Shown here: piece by piece, positions 33,341 to 56,262 of the stretch
Numbering within the stretch: the stretch's first letter is position 1
Layout of the letters: every line of letters starts with the position of its first letter
NCBI RefSeq assembly: GCF_020733705.1
Contig: NZ_JAJFZM010000004.1
Coordinates: 62,001-126,000, forward strand
DNA from: Nocardia australiensis
GTDB taxonomy: Bacteria; Actinomycetota; Actinomycetes; Mycobacteriales; Mycobacteriaceae
Direction: 5' to 3'
DNA length: 64,000 nt
Notes under the pieces: generated by a model
What the model was told of the DNA's origin: nothing
What the model saw: the letters and a program-made list of their open reading frames with translations, nothing else
Databases searched by the model: none
Position numbers and translations under genes: made by a program

Positions 33341-34273
33341 CTAGAACACGTTTTGGTCATGGTCAATGGGATGGCCGATGGGACGTTTCTGTGGTGAGTG
33401 CGGTTTGCGCCCGCCGGAGGACTCGGTAACCGCATCGGCCGCGGCGATGAGAACGGTTCCGCGACGGGCGATTTCGGCGCCGGTGATGGCCGCGCCGACA
33501 TACATGGTGAGCACCATGTTCTGCCGTCCGTCATAGTCATAGGTGGGTGCGGCGAGCAGGCTGACTGGATGTTCCTTCCGTGGTCGAAGGTCGGCGCCGA
33601 GGTACACCCGTTCGCCGAGGCTGGTCACCAGTTCGCCGACGAGTTCGCGCAGCTCCTCGGGCAGGTCGCGGGCGGCGACGCCGGACAGTAGTGAATACAG
33701 CCTGCGACCTGCGGCGGTCAGGCTCTCGATCAGGTATCCGCGAGCACGACACTCCGCGACGATCTGCCGCAGCCGCGCCACATCCTGTCGCAGCGGCACC
33801 GTCGCCGGCTTCGCCAGCCAGGCGTCGAACGCCGCGTCGGTGTCCCACAGCACGTACATCAGCCCGACCGGCGGTGCGAATAGGTAGGACGCGCCGACTT
33901 TTACCAGGCCGGGGCCGGTGCTCTCGAGTATCGCGATCTGATCACCGATCACCGCCGACGCGGTGCAGGTGGTGCGGTATTCGGTGCTGAGTTTCGCCAA
34001 TTCGGTGCGAGCGATGGCGGAAATTGCGAAGCTGTCCTGCGCGACCCGCCCTGCGGCGATGAGCGCGGGCCCGAGGCCGTAGGTGAGCGTGTGGGAATCG
34101 CGGACCAGGTAGCCGCCCGCGCTCAGTTCGGTGAGGATGCCCAGGCAGGTCGGTTTCGCCAGGTCCAGCTCGCGGGCAAGTTCGGACAGGCCGAAGCGCT
34201 TGCCGTGCTGTTCGACGAAGAAGTCCAGCACTTGGACCACCCGCGCGGTGGGGGCGGATCTGCGGGCAACCAT
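33341..34273 (-). CDS. IclR-family transcriptional regulator
   Basis: 310 residues. The N-terminal winged HTH is ARVVQVLDFFVEQHGKRFGL then SELARELDLAKPTCLGILTE, LSAGGYLVRD. The effector domain follows, with TVLIAAADAVTESSG near the C-end. IclR proteins sense small acids and act on nearby promoters. ATG 34273 has aggag upstream, directly beside the box at 34284-34297, so the box would block its ribosome site and promoter. It is divergent from the DUF1214-SDR-sulfotransferase operon, which it probably regulates. It ends 10 bases before cysD starts, on the same strand. Confidence 0.82.
   Translation of the reverse strand: MVARRSAPTARVVQVLDFFVEQHGKRFGLSELARELDLAKPTCLGILTELSAGGYLVRDSHTLTYGLGPALIAAGRVAQDSFAISAIARTELAKLSTEYRTTCTASAVIGDQIAILESTGPGLVKVGASYLFAPPVGLMYVLWDTDAAFDAWLAKPATVPLRQDVARLRQIVAECRARGYLIESLTAAGRRLYSLLSGVAARDLPEELRELVGELVTSLGERVYLGADLRPRKEHPVSLLAAPTYDYDGRQNMVLTMYVGAAITGAEIARRGTVLIAAADAVTESSGGRKPHSPQKRPIGHPIDHDQNVF
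33342..33355. promoter_or_regulatory. KstR-like box before cysD (near-match)
   Basis: TAGAACACGTTTTG matches the consensus TnnAACnnGTTnnA except for the last base. It lies 11-24 bases upstream of the cysD start and overlaps the stop codon of the IclR gene. It shares TAGAACACGTT with the site at 34284. Confidence 0.5.
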
Positions 34274-34283
34274 TGACCACTCC

Positions 34284-34297
34284 TAGAACACGTTCTA
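34284..34297. promoter_or_regulatory. KstR-type box between IclR and DUF1214 operon
   Basis: TAGAACACGTTCTA has perfect 6-base arms (TAGAAC/GTTCTA) and fits TnnAACnnGTTnnA, the published mycobacterial KstR motif, exactly. It sits 11 bases before the IclR start and 65 bases before the DUF1214 start, so it could control both. It could instead be the IclR protein's own site. Confidence 0.65.
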
Positions 34298-34361: not shown

Positions 34362-35525
34362 TTGCTGACACAGCCGTTCGCGGACGCCATCGCCACCGCC
34401 GAGCAGATCATCGCCGATGCGCCACATATTCGGACCGAACAGGATCTCGTCGAGGGTTACGACTATCTCGCGGGCAGCATTCGCGCGGCCATCCAAATGG
34501 CATGGGCCTATGAGCGTGACTTTCCGTTCTTCGTCCAATCCACCGGGCCCTACACGAAAATGGGCCTCGATAATCCCGATACGCTTTACTTTCATTCGTA
34601 CCTGCGCCCCGACGCCGATTATGTGGTGACCGGAACCCGCGGCACCACCCGCGACCTGAGTTTCCAGGTGCTCAACGGCGACTACTCACCCGTGGACGTG
34701 CCCGATAGCCTCACCGCATTCGACGATCGCTCGATCGATGTCGCCGCCGACGGGACCTACGTACTACGCCTCGGTCCCGGCGAGGCACGCCCCGGATACG
34801 TGCATCTCGCGCCCGACTCGGCCATGCTCGTGATCCGCGAGGTCTATAGCGATTGGGCCACCGAAAGGCCGGGCACGGTCCGTATTCAGCGAGTGGACCG
34901 GATCGGTGACGCGCCGCCGCCGCTGACGAAGGACCTGCTGACCAAGCGTTTCGGTGCCGCGGGCAAAATTCTGGTGTCGCGACTGAATACCTTCCTCGCC
35001 TTCCCGAATTGGTTCTACCTCAACCTGCCGGTCAATACGATGACCGAACCAAGATCGACCCCGGGCGGGCTCACCACCCAGTTTTCCTCGGTGGGACACT
35101 ACGAACTCGACGACGATCAGGTCATGATCATTACGGTGCCGAAATCGGATGCGCCGTATCAGGGCTTCCAGCTGGGCAGCATGTGGTATCTGTCGCTGGA
35201 CTACATCAACCACCAGACCAGCCTCACCGCGGACCAGGCGCGGGTGGATCCCGACGGGATGATCCGGCTCGTCGTGAGTGAGCGTGATCCTGGCCTGGAG
35301 AACTGGATCGAACGCACCGGACATGCCCGCGGGTATTTGCAATTTCGCTGGCAGCGCTTGGCGCGGGAGATGAAGCCCGAAGACGGGCCGACGGTCGAAG
35401 TGGTGTCAGTCGCGGAACTATCGGAGCGATTGCCGTATTACGAGCAGGCTCGGGTCTCGCCCGAGCAGTGGCGAGCGCGGATCGCGGCGCGGCAAGTCGC
35501 CGTGTCGGAAAGGATGTTGGGCTGA
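34362..35525 (+). CDS. DUF1214-domain protein
   Basis: 387 residues. The C-terminal half carries the DUF1214 pattern: GGLTTQFSSVGHYELDDDQV, then FQLGSMWYLSLDYINHQTSL and DGMIRLVVSERDPGLENWIE. A preceding strand-rich region includes PDTLYFHSYLRPDADYVVTG. Function is unknown. The start is TTG 34362 after ggagaag at 34351. It is the first gene of a three-gene operon (stop overlaps the SDR start as TGATG). From memory, M. tuberculosis has a similar trio (Rv3531c-Rv3530c-Rv3529c) within its cholesterol cluster, also unassigned. That parallel should be verified. Confidence 0.8.
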   Translation: MLTQPFADAIATAEQIIADAPHIRTEQDLVEGYDYLAGSIRAAIQMAWAYERDFPFFVQSTGPYTKMGLDNPDTLYFHSYLRPDADYVVTGTRGTTRDLSFQVLNGDYSPVDVPDSLTAFDDRSIDVAADGTYVLRLGPGEARPGYVHLAPDSAMLVIREVYSDWATERPGTVRIQRVDRIGDAPPPLTKDLLTKRFGAAGKILVSRLNTFLAFPNWFYLNLPVNTMTEPRSTPGGLTTQFSSVGHYELDDDQVMIITVPKSDAPYQGFQLGSMWYLSLDYINHQTSLTADQARVDPDGMIRLVVSERDPGLENWIERTGHARGYLQFRWQRLAREMKPEDGPTVEVVSVAELSERLPYYEQARVSPEQWRARIAARQVAVSERMLG

Positions 35526-36301
35526 TGTTGTTGCAGGACAAGGTCGTTGTGGTTTCCGGGGTGGGACCGGGTCTGGGCCGTGCCATCGCGGTGCAGAGCG
35601 CGCGTGCCGGGGCCGACGTGGTGCTGGCTTCGCGCACCGAATCGCGATTGGTCGAGGTTGCGAAGGAGGTGACCGAACTCGGCAGGCGCGCCGTGGTGGT
35701 GCCGACCGACATCAACGACGAAGCGGCGGTGACGAATCTGGTCGAGACGGCGGGCAGCGCGTTCGGCCGGGTCGACACGCTGGTGAACAATGCCTTCGCT
35801 ATCCCGCCGATCACCGATCTCGCCACCGTCGACCTGGACGATGTGCGCGCCGGATTCGAGACGAATGTGCTTGCCGCGCTGCGGTTGACGCGGCTGTTCG
35901 TGCCCGCGCTCGCCGAGTCGAAGGGTTCGGTCGTGATGATCAATTCCGCGGTGTTGCGGCATTCGCGGCGCACATTCGGGCCATACAAGATGGCCAAGGC
36001 GAGCCTGCTCGCCTTGGCACAGAGCCTCGCCACCGAACTCGGTCCTGAAGGCATTCGAGTGAATTCCGTGGCCCCCGGATATATTTGGGCCGACAACCTG
36101 AAGTGGTACTTCAACTACCTCGCCGAGCAGCGCGGCATCACCTCCGAGGAGGTATACGCCGAAACCGCCGCGACCATCGATCTGCGAAAGCTACCCGAAC
36201 CCGACGAGATCGCCGACGCCGTGGTCTTTTTCGCCTCGCAACTGGCGCGGGCGATCACCGGGTCGTGTCTGGATGTCAACGCAGGCGAATATCACCACTG
36301 A
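35525..36301 (+). CDS. SDR-family oxidoreductase
   Basis: 258-residue classical short-chain dehydrogenase. Cofactor loop: VVVVSGVGPGLGRAIAVQSA (GxxxGxG variant GVGPGLG). LVNNAFAIPP is the NNAG-like motif with Phe for Gly. Catalytic Ser lies in VVMINSAVLRH, and Tyr-Lys in FGPYKMAKASL (YxxxK). It should oxidise or reduce a hydroxyl/keto group with NAD(H). It is translationally coupled to DUF1214 and followed after 12 bases by the sulfotransferase, so its product or substrate may carry the hydroxyl that is sulfated. That link is inferred. Confidence 0.87.
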   Translation: MLLQDKVVVVSGVGPGLGRAIAVQSARAGADVVLASRTESRLVEVAKEVTELGRRAVVVPTDINDEAAVTNLVETAGSAFGRVDTLVNNAFAIPPITDLATVDLDDVRAGFETNVLAALRLTRLFVPALAESKGSVVMINSAVLRHSRRTFGPYKMAKASLLALAQSLATELGPEGIRVNSVAPGYIWADNLKWYFNYLAEQRGITSEEVYAETAATIDLRKLPEPDEIADAVVFFASQLARAITGSCLDVNAGEYHH

Positions 36302-36313
36302 GGGGACCAGAAA

Positions 36314-37483
36314 ATGACTGTGATCGGCAGGGGCGACGTCGGCACCATCGATGACCTGCATGCTTCGGCGACCAAGGTCGTCGGGCTGGACGATTTCGGT
36401 GACGACGGCTATCGCGAAGGGCTCCAGGTGCTACTCGAGTCCTATGCGAAGGACGCGGAGCTGACGCCGTTCGGCAACAAGGTGAATCGGGCCTTCCTGC
36501 GCGGTGCGTTGATCGCGCGGCTGCTCAGTGAATCTGCGTGGCAACGGTTTCCGGAACATGCCGAGGTGGCGATCGAGCGGCCCATCTTCGTCACCGGGCT
36601 GCCGCGCTCGGGGACGACGGCGGTGCACCGGCTGCTCAACGCCGACCCGGCGCACCAGGGACTGGAAATGTGGCTGACCGAGATGCCTCAGCCGCGTCCG
36701 CCGCGCGAGACCTGGGCGGACAACCCGGTGTATCAGCGCATCGAGTCCGCGTTCGAGAAGCATCATGTGGAGCATCCGGAATTCATGGGCGTGCACCACA
36801 TTTCGGCCGATCAGGTGGAGGAGTGCTGGCAGCTGTTGCGCCAGTCGGCGATGTCGGTGTCCTACGAATGCCTCGGATTCCTGCCCGGCTATTCCGAATG
36901 GCTGCGCGAGCGGAACTGGACCGAGGCCTATCGCAGGCACCGGCGCAACCTACAGCTGATCGGGCTGCCCGATGCCGGCCGCCGATGGGTGCTCAAGAAT
37001 CCGAGTCATTTGTTCGCCCTGGACGCGATCTTCGAGGTATACCCGGACGCGCTGGTCATCCAGATGCATCGCGATCCGCGCACCATCATCGGCTCGGTGT
37101 GCAGCCTCAATGAGCAAGCCTCGGCGGGCTGGTCGGAGAAGTTTCGCGGACCCGTTGTCGGTTCGGCACAGCTGGACCTGTGGGCCAGGGGAGCCGACCA
37201 CTTTCTCTCTGATCGCAAGCGGCACAACGCCGCTCAGTTCTGCGACGTGTACTACGACGACTTCGTAGCGGATCCGATCGGCACGGTCGCCTCGATCTAC
37301 CGGCATTTCGACCTGTCATTGAGTCAGGAGGCCGAATCCGCCATGGCGGCACTGCATTCGGAGACCACCTCTGGTGCCGCGCGGCCCACTCATCGCTACA
37401 CGCTGGCCGACTTCGGGTTGACCAGCGAGCAGGTCGACGCGCGTTTCGCGGAGTATCGCAGCGAGCACTTCCCGGGTAGATGA
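36314..37483 (+). CDS. PAPS-dependent sulfotransferase-family protein
   Basis: 389 residues of the Sulfotransfer_3 type. The 5'-phosphosulfate loop IFVTGLPRSGTTAVHRLL is at 91-108. The 3'-phosphate region is ALVIQMHRDPRTIIGSVCSL, with RDPR and Ser. WVLKNPSHLFALDAIFEVYP lies between them. It should move sulfuryl from PAPS to an alcohol in the cytoplasm; the acceptor is unknown. It is the last gene of the DUF1214-SDR operon, before a terminator. cysD and cysNC, which make PAPS, are about 3-6 kb away across a shared set of KstR-like boxes. Confidence 0.85.
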   Translation: MTVIGRGDVGTIDDLHASATKVVGLDDFGDDGYREGLQVLLESYAKDAELTPFGNKVNRAFLRGALIARLLSESAWQRFPEHAEVAIERPIFVTGLPRSGTTAVHRLLNADPAHQGLEMWLTEMPQPRPPRETWADNPVYQRIESAFEKHHVEHPEFMGVHHISADQVEECWQLLRQSAMSVSYECLGFLPGYSEWLRERNWTEAYRRHRRNLQLIGLPDAGRRWVLKNPSHLFALDAIFEVYPDALVIQMHRDPRTIIGSVCSLNEQASAGWSEKFRGPVVGSAQLDLWARGADHFLSDRKRHNAAQFCDVYYDDFVADPIGTVASIYRHFDLSLSQEAESAMAALHSETTSGAARPTHRYTLADFGLTSEQVDARFAEYRSEHFPGR

Positions 37484-41830: not shown

Positions 41831-41844
41831 TGAAACGTGTTCTA
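41831..41844. promoter_or_regulatory. KstR-type box before the C-C hydrolase
   Basis: TGAAACGTGTTCTA fits TnnAACnnGTTnnA at every defined position. It ends 10 bases before the GTG start of the HsaD-like hydrolase, so the promoter or leader is very short and a bound repressor would shut it off. Confidence 0.6.
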
Positions 41845-41854
41845 GTGTGATGGT

Positions 41855-42706
41855 GTGGACGTGACATACGACGGGACGAAGCGCGAGGTTGCAACCGACA
41901 AGGGGGTGCTGCGTTATCACGAGGCAGGCACCGGGCCGCCGCTCATTCTCCTGCACGGATCGGGGATCGGAGTCAACGGCTGGCGCAACTTCCGAGGCAA
42001 TCTCGGGGTCTTCGCCGAGCACTTCCACTGCTACGTCCTCGAATTTCCCGGGTTCGGCGTGAGTGATCCGGTGGGGGGTCACCCCGTGCTGTCGGCGGGC
42101 TCGGCGGTGCTGCGGTTCATGGATGCGCTCGGCATCGAATCGGCTGCGCTGGTCGGTAATTCGATGGGCGGTGTAGTCGGCGCGAACATTGCCATGAAGC
42201 ATCCGGCGCGGGTCGAGAAACTGGTGACGATCGGCGGGATCGGGGAGGGCGTTTTCAGCCCGAGTCCGAGTGAAGGCACCCGGCTGTTGCAGGAATTCGC
42301 CGACGGCCCGAGTCGCGAGAAGCTGGTTCGCTGGCTCAATTGCATGATCCACAACCCGAAGCTGCTGACCGAGGATCTGATCGAGGAACGCTGGCAGGCG
42401 GCCGTCGATCCCGCCGCGCAACAGACGTTGAAGATGATGTACGGGTCCGAAGCGTTTGCACGGCAACAACAATTCCTCGCAACGTCGGATACTCCGCCGT
42501 ATTGGTCGACGATGCACACGATCACATGCCCGACCCTGCTCGCCTGGGGCGGCGACGATCGACAGTGCCCGCCTGATATGGCGTTGATGCCGATGCGCCT
42601 GATCCCCAACGCCGAACTCCATGTCTTCCCCAAGTGCGGGCATTGGGTGATGTTCGAGGCGAAGGCGGCCTTCGAACGTGTCACCCTGGAGTTCCTTCGC
42701 CGATAG
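41855..42706 (+). CDS. Alpha/beta hydrolase, HsaD/BphD-like C-C bond hydrolase
   Basis: 283 residues. LRYHEAGTGPPLILLHGSGI (oxyanion region), nucleophile Ser103 in LVGNSMGGVVGANIAMKHPA, acid region LLAWGGDDRQCPPD, and catalytic His in FPKCGHWVMFEAKAAFERVT. FHCYVLEFPGFGVSDPVGGH and MIHNPKLLTEDLIEERWQAA match the meta-cleavage-product hydrolase group that includes HsaD of cholesterol ring catabolism. GTG 41855 is the best start. The KstR-type box just upstream supports a sterol-catabolic role; substrate is inferred. No other hsa gene is in the window. Confidence 0.83.
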   Translation: MDVTYDGTKREVATDKGVLRYHEAGTGPPLILLHGSGIGVNGWRNFRGNLGVFAEHFHCYVLEFPGFGVSDPVGGHPVLSAGSAVLRFMDALGIESAALVGNSMGGVVGANIAMKHPARVEKLVTIGGIGEGVFSPSPSEGTRLLQEFADGPSREKLVRWLNCMIHNPKLLTEDLIEERWQAAVDPAAQQTLKMMYGSEAFARQQQFLATSDTPPYWSTMHTITCPTLLAWGGDDRQCPPDMALMPMRLIPNAELHVFPKCGHWVMFEAKAAFERVTLEFLRR

Positions 42707-42759: not shown

Positions 42760-43275
42760 GTGAGTGACGACCCGGATCGGCACGACGACGTGCATGTCCG
42801 TACAGGCGACGGGGCTACGGTGCCGCACCTGACGGGCCCTCTGCTCGACGACCTGCTCAGTGCGCCACCCGACCCTGGGTGTCCTTTTCTCACCGTCAGT
42901 CGCGGCGACCACGACCACATCCGGGCTCGGCTGCTGCCCGACGGCGTCTATGAGCTCGAATATCGCGCGGGTTCGGGGGATGAGGTGTTCCAGGTCTATA
43001 CCCCCGACGCGGTACTGGTTCGGGATGTCATGTGGGCGTGGATCGACGGCGATCGGTGGTGGCGTGACGGAGTGGCGTGGTTTCCCGTCGACCCAGCGAT
43101 CGCGGAATTGGAGACGACCCGCCGGGAACTGGAAGGGCTGCTCGACGGCCTCACGGTAATGGATGACATCGAATCCACCATGGACCAGGCCATGGCGCGA
43201 GTCGACGAGCTCATGGCATTCGAAATTCCCGATATTCCGGACGAACCCGATGATGAGGGGCGAAGCCGGCCGTGA
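42760..43275 (+). CDS. Hypothetical acidic protein
   Basis: 171 residues from GTG 42760 (gcgcagg upstream, weak). Composition is acidic with Trp-rich centre: LLPDGVYELEYRAGSGDEVF, QVYTPDAVLVRDVMWAWIDG, RWWRDGVAWFPVDPAIAELE, then a helical tail TMDQAMARVDELMAFEIPDI. I do not recognise the family. It reads like actinobacterial DUF-type proteins that occur near hydrolases. Downstream is a convergent thioredoxin gene. Confidence 0.6.
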   Translation: MSDDPDRHDDVHVRTGDGATVPHLTGPLLDDLLSAPPDPGCPFLTVSRGDHDHIRARLLPDGVYELEYRAGSGDEVFQVYTPDAVLVRDVMWAWIDGDRWWRDGVAWFPVDPAIAELETTRRELEGLLDGLTVMDDIESTMDQAMARVDELMAFEIPDIPDEPDDEGRSRP

Positions 43276-49210: not shown

Positions 49211-49454
49211 GCCCTCGACGAGTAAGTCTGAACTGTGGCTCGCCCGACGGCGGGCCACAGTCGGTTGGTCGTTGTTTGATGCGGGATTGTTTGTGCGCGC
49301 ATGAAGGTAAGCGAGGGGCTCGGGGGGGCTGTCAATAACGGATTCCGGCTACCGAGAAGATCCGTAGCGATCTCCGTAGTCTCCGGGATTCCCTCTGGCC
49401 GCTACGGCGGCAATGTGATTGGAGATATATCGAGCTACACACTGGAGGTCGGCC

Positions 49455-50297
49455 ATGACGGTCGAGGTGATGACCTACCGCGAGCCCGGGCAATTGTGGG
49501 CAGGGACGGGACCGGCGGATACCAGGACCACGCAACCGCCGGTGTCCATGATCGAGCGAATGACCCTCATTCTGGATGCCTTCGACAGTTCGACCCCGGT
49601 GCTGACGCTGCTCGGTCTGGCCGAACGCACCGGGCTGCCGCGCTCGACGGTGCATCGCATCCTGGATCAGATGATCCGATTGCGCTGGCTCGCGCACGCG
49701 CCAGGTGGTTATCGCCTCGGTATGCGCCCGTTCGAATTGGGCGGGCTCGCCGCCGACCACAACGAGGTCCGTGACGTGGTGAGTCCACTGCTGCACGATT
49801 TGTGTCAGCGCACCGGCTTGGCCGGGCACCTGGGAGTTCTCGATGGGCGGGAGGTGCTCTACCTGGACAAGGCTGGTGGCCGCCTCACCGCGCAAATCCC
49901 AACCCGCCTCGGCGGTCGCATGCCCGCACACAGCACGGCCGTCGGCAAGGCGCTGCTCGCCACGCTCGAACCGAGCGTTGTCGAAACATCCTTTCGTGCC
50001 AGGCTGCCGCGGCTGACCGCGCGAACGATCGGTGACAGACCCGAATTGCATCGCGAGCTCGCCCGTATCCGGCACCGCCGGGGCGTCGCGGTCGATAACG
50101 AGGAATCCGCCAATGGCGTTGCGTGCGTCGCGGTTCCCATTCGTGGACGTGGCGCCGCCGTCGGCGCGCTTTCGCTGTCCGGTCGAATCGGCGGCGAGCG
50201 GCCGAACTTGGACACCGCCCGCTTGGCCAGGGTGCTCGTCGAAGTCGCCCACGAGTCCGCGCGCACCCTGTTCCCTCGTCATGCCCGCTGGCGTTGA
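49455..50297 (+). CDS. IclR-family regulator, paralogue A
   Basis: 280 residues from ATG 49455 (ggagg at 49443). HTH: MIERMTLILDAFDSSTPVLT, LLGLAERTGLPRSTVHRILD, QMIRLRWLAHAPGGYRLGMR. Effector domain: RMPAHSTAVGKALLATLEPS and CVAVPIRGRGAAVGALSLSG, ending RHARWR. It is almost the same as the gene at 55420, equal in length. It follows the VOC fragment, and its original neighbours may have been disrupted by the IS element that starts 49 bases downstream. Confidence 0.83.
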   Translation: MTVEVMTYREPGQLWAGTGPADTRTTQPPVSMIERMTLILDAFDSSTPVLTLLGLAERTGLPRSTVHRILDQMIRLRWLAHAPGGYRLGMRPFELGGLAADHNEVRDVVSPLLHDLCQRTGLAGHLGVLDGREVLYLDKAGGRLTAQIPTRLGGRMPAHSTAVGKALLATLEPSVVETSFRARLPRLTARTIGDRPELHRELARIRHRRGVAVDNEESANGVACVAVPIRGRGAAVGALSLSGRIGGERPNLDTARLARVLVEVAHESARTLFPRHARWR

Positions 50298-50390: not shown

Positions 50391-51049
50391 GTGGTAGGTC
50401 GGGGTGAGTTGACTGATCGGGCATGGGCCCGAATCCAACCGTTCGACGCTAGCGTGATCACCGGCAGGTGATCAACGCGATCCTGTGGAAACTACGGACC
50501 GGAGCACCCTGGCGTGACCTGCCCGAGCGGTACGGTCCGTGGAAAACCGCGCACGAGCGGTTGCGGTTATGGACCGCCGATGACACCTGGCAACGTCTGC
50601 TGGATCAGGTGATCGTCAAAGACGACTCGATCGGCGAGGTCGAGTGGGTCATCAGTGTCGATTCCAGCGTGGTCCGGGCTCATCAGCACGCTGCTGGCGC
50701 CCGGAAAAAGGGGGCGGTGCACCCGGAATCGAAGCCCTCGCGATCGACGGGGAAGGACTCGGACGCTCCCGGGGCGGGTTGAGCAGCAAGATCCACCTCG
50801 CCGTCGATGGACGCGGGCTACCGATGCGGATCGTGTTGACCGCTGGCCAGGCCGGAGACAACCCGCAGCTGACAGTATTACTCGACGGTATCCAGGTAGC
50901 CCGGATCGGCCGGGGCCGCGCCCGCACCGGACCCGAGGGCAGTCATCGCAGACAGAGCATTCCGCGGATTGGCCACCCGGTACGCCAAACGCGTCGCCTA
51001 CTTCCACGCCGAACTCACCATCGCCGCCATCATCCTCTGGCTCCGATGA
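50391..51049 (+). pseudogene. IS5-family transposase, deleted and frameshifted
   Basis: GTG 50391 gives VVGRGELTDRAWARIQP, then a deletion near 50445. A second frame reads INAILWKLRTGAPWRDLPER, YGPWKTAHERLRLWTADDTW, VEWVISVDSSVVRAHQHAAG (first Asp). A shift near 50720 yields GLGRSRGGLSSKIHLAVDGR, GLPMRIVLTAGQAGDNPQLT. After another gap VIADRAFRGLATRYAKRVAY and AAIILWLR remain in a third frame. The middle with the other catalytic residues is lost. Inactive. Confidence 0.8.
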
Positions 51050-55419: not shown

Positions 55420-56262
55420 ATGACGATCGAGGTGATGCCTCACTATGGGCCTGAGGATCTGTGGGCCGCAGCGAGTCCAACGGCCGCTCGGACCACGCAA
55501 CCGCCGGTGTCCATGATCGAGCGAATGACGCTGATCCTGGACGCTTTCGACACTTCGACCCCGGTGCTGACGCTGCTCGGTCTGGCCGAACGTACCGGGC
55601 TGCCCCGCTCGACGGTGCATCGCATCCTGGATCAGATGATCCGATTGCGCTGGCTCTCGGACGCCCCCGGTGGTTATCGCCTCGGTATGCGCCTGTTCGA
55701 ATTGGGCGGGCTCGCCGCCGACCACAATGAGATTCGCGATGTGGTGAGTCCGCTGCTGCACGATCTGTGTCAACGGACCGGCCTGGTCGGCCATATCGGT
55801 GTGCTCGACGGTCGTGAGGTGCTGTATCTCGACAAGGCGGGCGGTCGCGGCACCGTGCATATTCCGACCCGACTCGGCGGCCGGATGCCCGCGCACAGCA
55901 CCGCCCTCGGCAAGGCGCTGCTCGCGACCCACGAATCGAGCATCGTCGGGACTTCCTTCCCGGACCGGCTGACCCAGCTGACCTCCCGAACCATTTGTGA
56001 TAGAGCCGAATTGCATCGCGAGCTGGCCCGCACCCGGCAACGTCAGGGGGTCGCGCTCGACAACGAAGAATCCGCCAATGGCATAGCGTGCGTGGCGGTC
56101 CCGATCCGGGGCCGTGGTGCCGCGCCCTGCGCCCTGTCGCTATCGGGTCAGACGGGTGCGGGCCATCCCGCTCTCGATACCGCCGTCCTGGCCCGCGTGC
56201 TGTTCGAAGTCGCTCACGAATCCGCGCAGGCGCTCTTTCCGCGCCACGCTCGCCGCCGCTGA
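55420..56262 (+). CDS. IclR-family regulator, paralogue B
   Basis: 280 residues, almost identical to the protein at 49455: MIERMTLILDAFDTSTPVLT, LLGLAERTGLPRSTVHRILD, QMIRLRWLSDAPGGYRLGMR, then RLGGRMPAHSTALGKALLAT. The divergence is greatest at the N-tail and the last 30 residues. ATG 55420 has ggagg upstream. It is divergent from the SnoaL/aminotransferase pair, which it could regulate. The duplication with 5.9 kb in between is unusual. Confidence 0.85.
   Translation: MTIEVMPHYGPEDLWAAASPTAARTTQPPVSMIERMTLILDAFDTSTPVLTLLGLAERTGLPRSTVHRILDQMIRLRWLSDAPGGYRLGMRLFELGGLAADHNEIRDVVSPLLHDLCQRTGLVGHIGVLDGREVLYLDKAGGRGTVHIPTRLGGRMPAHSTALGKALLATHESSIVGTSFPDRLTQLTSRTICDRAELHRELARTRQRQGVALDNEESANGIACVAVPIRGRGAAPCALSLSGQTGAGHPALDTAVLARVLFEVAHESAQALFPRHARRR

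Follow-up and report, generated by a model that had tools for sequence, protein, structure and literature searches.

The hydrolase gene and its product

The window, the whole stretch of 64,000 nucleotides of Nocardia australiensis DNA that was analysed, contains on the forward strand at 41855-42706 an open and intact frame with a GTG start (an alternative in-frame GTG lies at 41861). The frame encodes an alpha/beta hydrolase of the meta-cleavage-product (MCP) type with 283 amino acids (P0001), and its mRNA is probably leaderless. Among NCBIfam models the protein ranked first with HsaD (NF045632), at 247.7 bits against an equivalog cut-off of 400. Its best relatives in the PDB were HsaD of Mycobacterium tuberculosis, followed by BphD and MhpC. 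Similarly, HsaD chains gave the best alignment with the AlphaFold2 model (pLDDT 92.8), at Z 38.2 and an rmsd of 1.7 over 270 residues, ahead of BphD (Z 36.6) and MhpC (Z 36.1), where rows within 1 Z were treated as tied; the top 21 structure matches were all MCP hydrolases or near kin, with HsaD first.

The codon of the putative catalytic Ser103 (in GNSMGG) is at 42161-42163, and the residue aligns with the serine of GNSLGG in M. tuberculosis HsaD, which is Ser114 in the numbering of the PDB titles. Serine is present in 70/70 rows of clade A, the group of close relatives described below, while Asp235 (42557-42559) and His263 (42641-42643) are each found in 68 of these rows, the other two having a gap. 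Together with Asn45, Asn102, Arg179 and Trp264, these residues match positions that are invariant in the family and are kept in nearly all rows; in MCP hydrolases the Ser-Asp-His triad and the Asn, Arg and Trp have catalytic roles. BphD, MhpC, CumD and CarC, whose substrates are aromatic, have the MCP-hydrolase fold like the window hydrolase, and the BphD and MhpC rows share its catalytic residues. The initial annotation had named the gene an MCP hydrolase, which is borne out by the family and structure matches and the kept active-site residues; the product is predicted to be a serine-dependent C-C bond hydrolase of this family. The next gene (42760-43275) starts after a gap of 53 bp. A local operon of the two genes was considered and not used, because the downstream gene has no family matches and is not common to the compared relatives.

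A KstR-type operator upstream of the gene

Directly upstream, at 41831-41844 on the forward strand, lies the 14-base palindrome TGAAACGTGTTCTA, a predicted KstR operator. It agrees with the operator motif TNNAACNNGTTNNA at every fixed position and fits the KstR consensus TnnAACnnGTTnnA completely, both as given by Kendall et al. (2007; PMC1995591). The box ends exactly 10 bases before the GTG at 41855; the earlier description of its fit and of its spacing was thus accurate. The window holds two exact KstR-type palindromes (shuffled mean 0.17; two or more in 0/100 shuffles). Genome-wide, 45 distinct TNNAACNNGTTNNA sites were found vs 27 for the reversed-pattern control, so that a single site alone is weak to moderate evidence. 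With 26 possible start positions upstream of any one start codon, a box would arise there by chance with a probability of about 1.0e-4 to 1.7e-4.

The second palindrome in the window, TAGAACACGTTCTA at 34284-34297, separates an IclR-like gene (33341-34273, reverse strand) from a three-gene run on the forward strand (34362-37483; an unknown protein, an SDR and a sulfotransferase). Another exact box was detected about 1 kb past the right end of the window (C6:127017-127030; L042:3018-3031), between two divergent genes, with the start codon on the plus side 8 bases after the box.

Phylogenetic placement and relation to HsaD

The genome (G000, 6.88 Mb in 17 contigs) contains a canonical HsaD on another contig (C1:2059687-2060532; 490.2 bits vs the cut-off of 400), adjoined by HsaA (695.7 bits, cut-off 450) and HsaC (569.3 bits, cut-off 450). 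The presence of a canonical hsaD elsewhere in the genome, one of the checks suggested with the initial annotation, was therefore confirmed, and since the hsaA/hsaC/hsaD locus is intact, the idea that the window gene is a canonical hsaD mislaid from a broken cluster was ruled out. Canonical HsaD has the same fold, the same catalytic residues and a KstR-type regulon, and it provides the nearest solved structures. In contrast, the window hydrolase is only 39% identical to it, belongs to a separate clade, has a longer lid span and stands alone instead of with hsaA and hsaC.

A quick tree was built from 91 rows, near-duplicates and broken copies having been dropped by hand, and a careful tree from 50 of these rows, with the long-branched L128, L148, L153, L158, L176, L178, L179 and L180 left out. 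In the 50-row tree, which includes HsaD, BphD and MhpC as had been suggested, the window hydrolase fell in its own clade A (16 rows, support 100/99), and canonical HsaD formed a clade apart from it (8 rows, 100/99). The sister of clade A is clade B (16 rows), with a support of only 79/88 for clade B and 100/98 for A+B. The BphD/MhpC group (4 rows, 100/100) was outside the A, B and HsaD clades in this tree, which was built without CumD and CarC. Forcing the window protein together with HsaD cost 156 log-likelihood units and was rejected (p-AU 2.8e-66), and the 91-row tree agreed with the 50-row tree.

Clade-A proteins, 65-77% identical, were found in Nocardia, Rhodococcus, Gordonia, Speluncibacter and a Mycobacterium. 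Named genomes were also scanned by pattern, which is not a census; the 44 loci returned belong to Nocardia, Rhodococcus, Prescottella, Gordonia, Speluncibacter, Mycobacterium, Nocardioides, Arthrobacter, Glutamicibacter and others. A match with at least 65% identity was present in at least 34 of 148 genomes of the same genus (two of the 34 partial), and one match lies in Nocardia farcinica at NZ_LN868939.1:2490524-2491348; such a limited presence indicates that the hydrolase is not essential to sterol use. Among 25 genomes examined, canonical HsaD (at least 85% identity) was also present in 8/8 clade-A genomes. Because canonical HsaD is kept in those genomes, the clade-A hydrolase is an addition, not a replacement. 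A hydrolase 48% identical to that of the window was also observed on a plasmid of Sphingobium sp. TomTYG73 (L172:7995-8849), alone inside a run of cobalamin biosynthesis genes.

The nearest sisters, clade-B hydrolases such as that of pRHL1 of Rhodococcus jostii RHA1 (L169, in a locus that we take to be 'cluster 4'), show 51-62% identity and the same lid and loop lengths as clade A. The span from R179 to W231 comprises 53 residues in 65/66 clade-A and 38/40 clade-B rows vs 46 in 26/26 canonical rows, and the span 120-140 has 21 residues in both clades vs 23 in canonical HsaD. Position 38 is Ile in clade A, with Pro there in 40/40 clade-B rows. These span differences suggest that the preferred substrate probably differs from DSHA.

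The same data bear on plain redundancy, by which the enzyme would be a backup HsaD acting on the same substrate, DSHA, adding hydrolase dose and having no specificity of its own. The regulon motif and the catalytic residues are those of HsaD, and in the 8 clade-A genomes a canonical HsaD always stands beside the clade-A enzyme, as redundancy would have it. However, the separate deep clade and the consistent lid and loop changes, which suggest another substrate, argue against this explanation, and we regard it as unlikely, though it is the strongest of the alternatives. The initial annotation had raised the possibility of a second HsaD. In the strict sense this does not hold, as the protein lies outside the HsaD clade and below the cut-off in a genome with a canonical HsaD; taken to mean a further MCP hydrolase drawn into the sterol regulon, it is supported.

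Gene neighbourhoods

Neighbouring genes were called with a simple GC-position script, not a proper gene finder, and were compared with steroid proteins from this genome and from pRHL1. The window gene calls starting at 30000-63900 included no hsa or kst gene, and the earlier remark that no hsaA, hsaB, hsaC or kst gene accompanies the hydrolase was upheld within this range. Likewise, the clade-A flanks, which covered about 1.5 to 7 kb and a longer stretch in the window, showed no hsa- or kst-type gene except at L086 (R. maanshanensis), where an HsaA-like neighbour (62%) is divergent and has its own exact box in the space between the two genes, and at L127, where a neighbour has a 29% match to HsaA. 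The neighbouring genes differ between groups of species while the box is kept, and the gene and its operator thus appear to travel as one unit. Two IclR-like genes of the window (49419-50297 and 55420-56262; 7.6 and 13.6 kb from the hydrolase) each share about 40% identity with the IclR encoded in the steroid-type cluster of pRHL1, and the catabolic genes of that cluster do not accompany them. The frame starting at 50468 looks by eye like a piece of a transposase.

The clade-B hydrolases differ from those of clade A in that most belong to catabolic clusters, of which several include an IclR gene, and in that none has an exact box at -40..-15 (that is, starting 15-40 bases before the start codon). 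At most clade-B loci, including that on pRHL1 of RHA1, KstD-, HsaA-, HsaC- or related genes adjoin the hydrolase. Cluster D of Nocardioides simplex (PMC7807495) is possibly of the clade-B kind as well, with an HsaD-like hydrolase in a KstD/HsaA/HsaC-type cluster.

Alpha/beta hydrolases change chemistry easily, and no ring-cleavage dioxygenase gene accompanies clade A; the enzyme might therefore be a KstR-regulated hydrolase that uses the MCP scaffold on another bond (ester, lactone or thioester) in sterol catabolism. But the whole MCP set Asn45, Asn102, Arg179 and Trp264 is kept, and the sister clade sits with HsaC- and HsaA-type genes, so we rate this explanation as less probable still than redundancy.

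Steroid genes and dioxygenases elsewhere in the genome

A KstR gene was identified at C1:2034257-2034838 (336 bits vs the NF033703 cut-off of 280), with a KstR-type box near it at C1:2034985. On contig C2, a box also precedes a 3-oxosteroid 1-dehydrogenase gene (927 bits, cut-off 788); boxes before genes such as this one indicate that the motif marks sterol genes in this genome. The boxes at this C2 gene are in tandem (C2:449273-449309, L046), outside the main steroid locus, and the gene is divergent from that of an acyl-CoA ligase.

An HsaC-type query gave one match in the genome, a gene that reaches the HsaC equivalog cut-off. An HsaA-like monooxygenase gene with an adjoining IclR-like gene was observed on C8 (L220:11595-13926; 57% to the R. 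maanshanensis neighbour). The idea that this pair might supply in trans the partners which sister-clade hydrolases have was considered and rejected, as the pair has no nearby box even at one mismatch and no second HsaC was found.

Two LigB-type dioxygenase matches were found on C7 and C2, and a search for a LigB partner of the window hydrolase returned nothing convincing. These two matches and the structural neighbours BphD and MhpC are what speaks for a hydrolase acting on an aromatic, non-steroid meta-cleavage product that enzymes encoded elsewhere in the genome would form. Against it, the C7 gene has its own hydrolase about 2.5 kb away, the C2 gene has no evident catabolic cluster among its gene calls, and a conserved sterol-type operator does not fit such a role, which makes this explanation very improbable.

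Conservation of the operator and the predicted promoter

The upstream regions were assigned to groups according to how closely their proteins match that of the window (at least 65% identity for A, 51 to below 65% for B), a division consistent with the trees for the included rows. Clade A comprised 70 rows with 51 distinct upstreams, identical upstreams being counted once and some loci having been fetched twice. An exact box at -40..-15 was present in 39/51 distinct clade-A upstreams, and a box with at most one mismatch in 43/51, vs 0/39 and 1/39 in clade B (Fisher test for clade A vs B, P-value = 4e-15, relatedness of the rows being ignored). No exact box was found at these positions in the 43-48% group (0/13) or in canonical and other hydrolases (0/34); its absence before canonical hsaD is expected because that gene is not the first of its operon. 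Two clade-B upstreams have exact boxes farther away (L125 at -213 and L152 at -137).

The 12/51 clade-A upstreams without an exact box were counted against the favoured reading of the gene as a KstR-controlled steroid hydrolase, as were its limited presence in the genus and the lack of hsa neighbours in clade A outside L086. Four have one-mismatch boxes (L086, L103, L153 and L158), a more degraded box occurs in L099, and L127 and L164 are broken or truncated gene copies. In five from Rhodococcus and Prescottella (L101, L105, L106, L110 and L170) no box was found. The R. gordoniae locus has an annotated MarR gene, divergent from the hydrolase and upstream of it.

The assignment to KstR draws on the motif, on the presence of KstR in the genome and, as the strongest evidence, on the conservation of the box in 39/51 upstreams; KstR control of the hydrolase, although predicted from sequence comparison, is well supported. 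A similar palindrome might be used by other TetR regulators. The alternative of a palindrome arisen by chance before a gene outside the KstR regulon, which the 27 control sites in the genome might suggest, is extremely improbable given such position-specific conservation at a chance of about 1e-4 per locus.

A putative -10 element, TAGTGT (41843-41848, forward strand), shares its first two bases with the last two of the operator. Among the clade-A upstreams with a box, 37/39 have a TANNNT hexamer begun by the last two bases of the box, and the gap from box to start codon is mostly 10 or 11 nt. No conserved -35 element was seen in column counts of the clade-A upstreams. From the overlap of box and hexamer and the distance of 10-11 nt, transcription is expected to start at or beside the start codon, which suggests a leaderless promoter whose -10 would be occupied and blocked by KstR. 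The KstR motif is reported to overlap the -10 at kstR itself (PMC1995591), and a leaderless start has been proposed for kstD3 of R. ruber (PMC5348764). The kstR/fadE34 and kstD3 promoters share the palindrome consensus with the hydrolase box; unlike them, the hydrolase promoter serves a single-gene unit found in many unrelated neighbourhoods.

Discussion

We consider it reasonably probable, from comparison of sequences, that the hydrolase is a one-gene unit of the KstR regulon, an additional steroid ring-cleavage hydrolase for a product of HsaC that HsaD handles poorly. A hydrolase of a second steroid-type system would have lost its cluster and come under KstR. By binding the palindrome that overlaps the -10 of the leaderless promoter, KstR would block transcription, and a sterol-derived ligand would remove it, so that the hydrolase would be produced along with the canonical pathway, whose genes lie on another contig. 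The enzyme would then act in trans on a meta-cleavage product formed by HsaC, no other HsaC-type extradiol dioxygenase having been found in the genome. Its substrate would most likely be a DSHA analogue, with the side chain still attached or the ring modified; that HsaD would handle it poorly is suggested by the retention of canonical HsaD while the lid length and the active-site loop differ consistently. The identity of this analogue is a guess. The initial annotation had also offered another ring compound as the substrate; a steroid-derived one appears more likely by analogy, because the sister clade sits in steroid-type clusters.

A search of the open-licence literature returned no paper describing an orphan KstR-controlled paralogue of HsaD. 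Clade A could, rather speculatively, represent a branch of the Mycobacteriales sterol pathway that has not been described before, a self-contained operator-plus-hydrolase cassette descended from a second steroid catabolic system. It would cleave the ring-A products of side-chain-bearing or modified steroids and so allow rings and side chain to be degraded at the same time. If the hydrolase has the proposed role after HsaC, sterol degraders of the order would use two different C-C hydrolases after one HsaC. It would then matter for the reading of steroid pathways from genomes, in which best-hit annotation would name the gene HsaD, and would bear on the phenotypes of hsaD mutants and on steroid biotechnology. 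A gene-plus-operator unit in unrelated neighbourhoods would also show cleanly how a lone enzyme can join a regulon.
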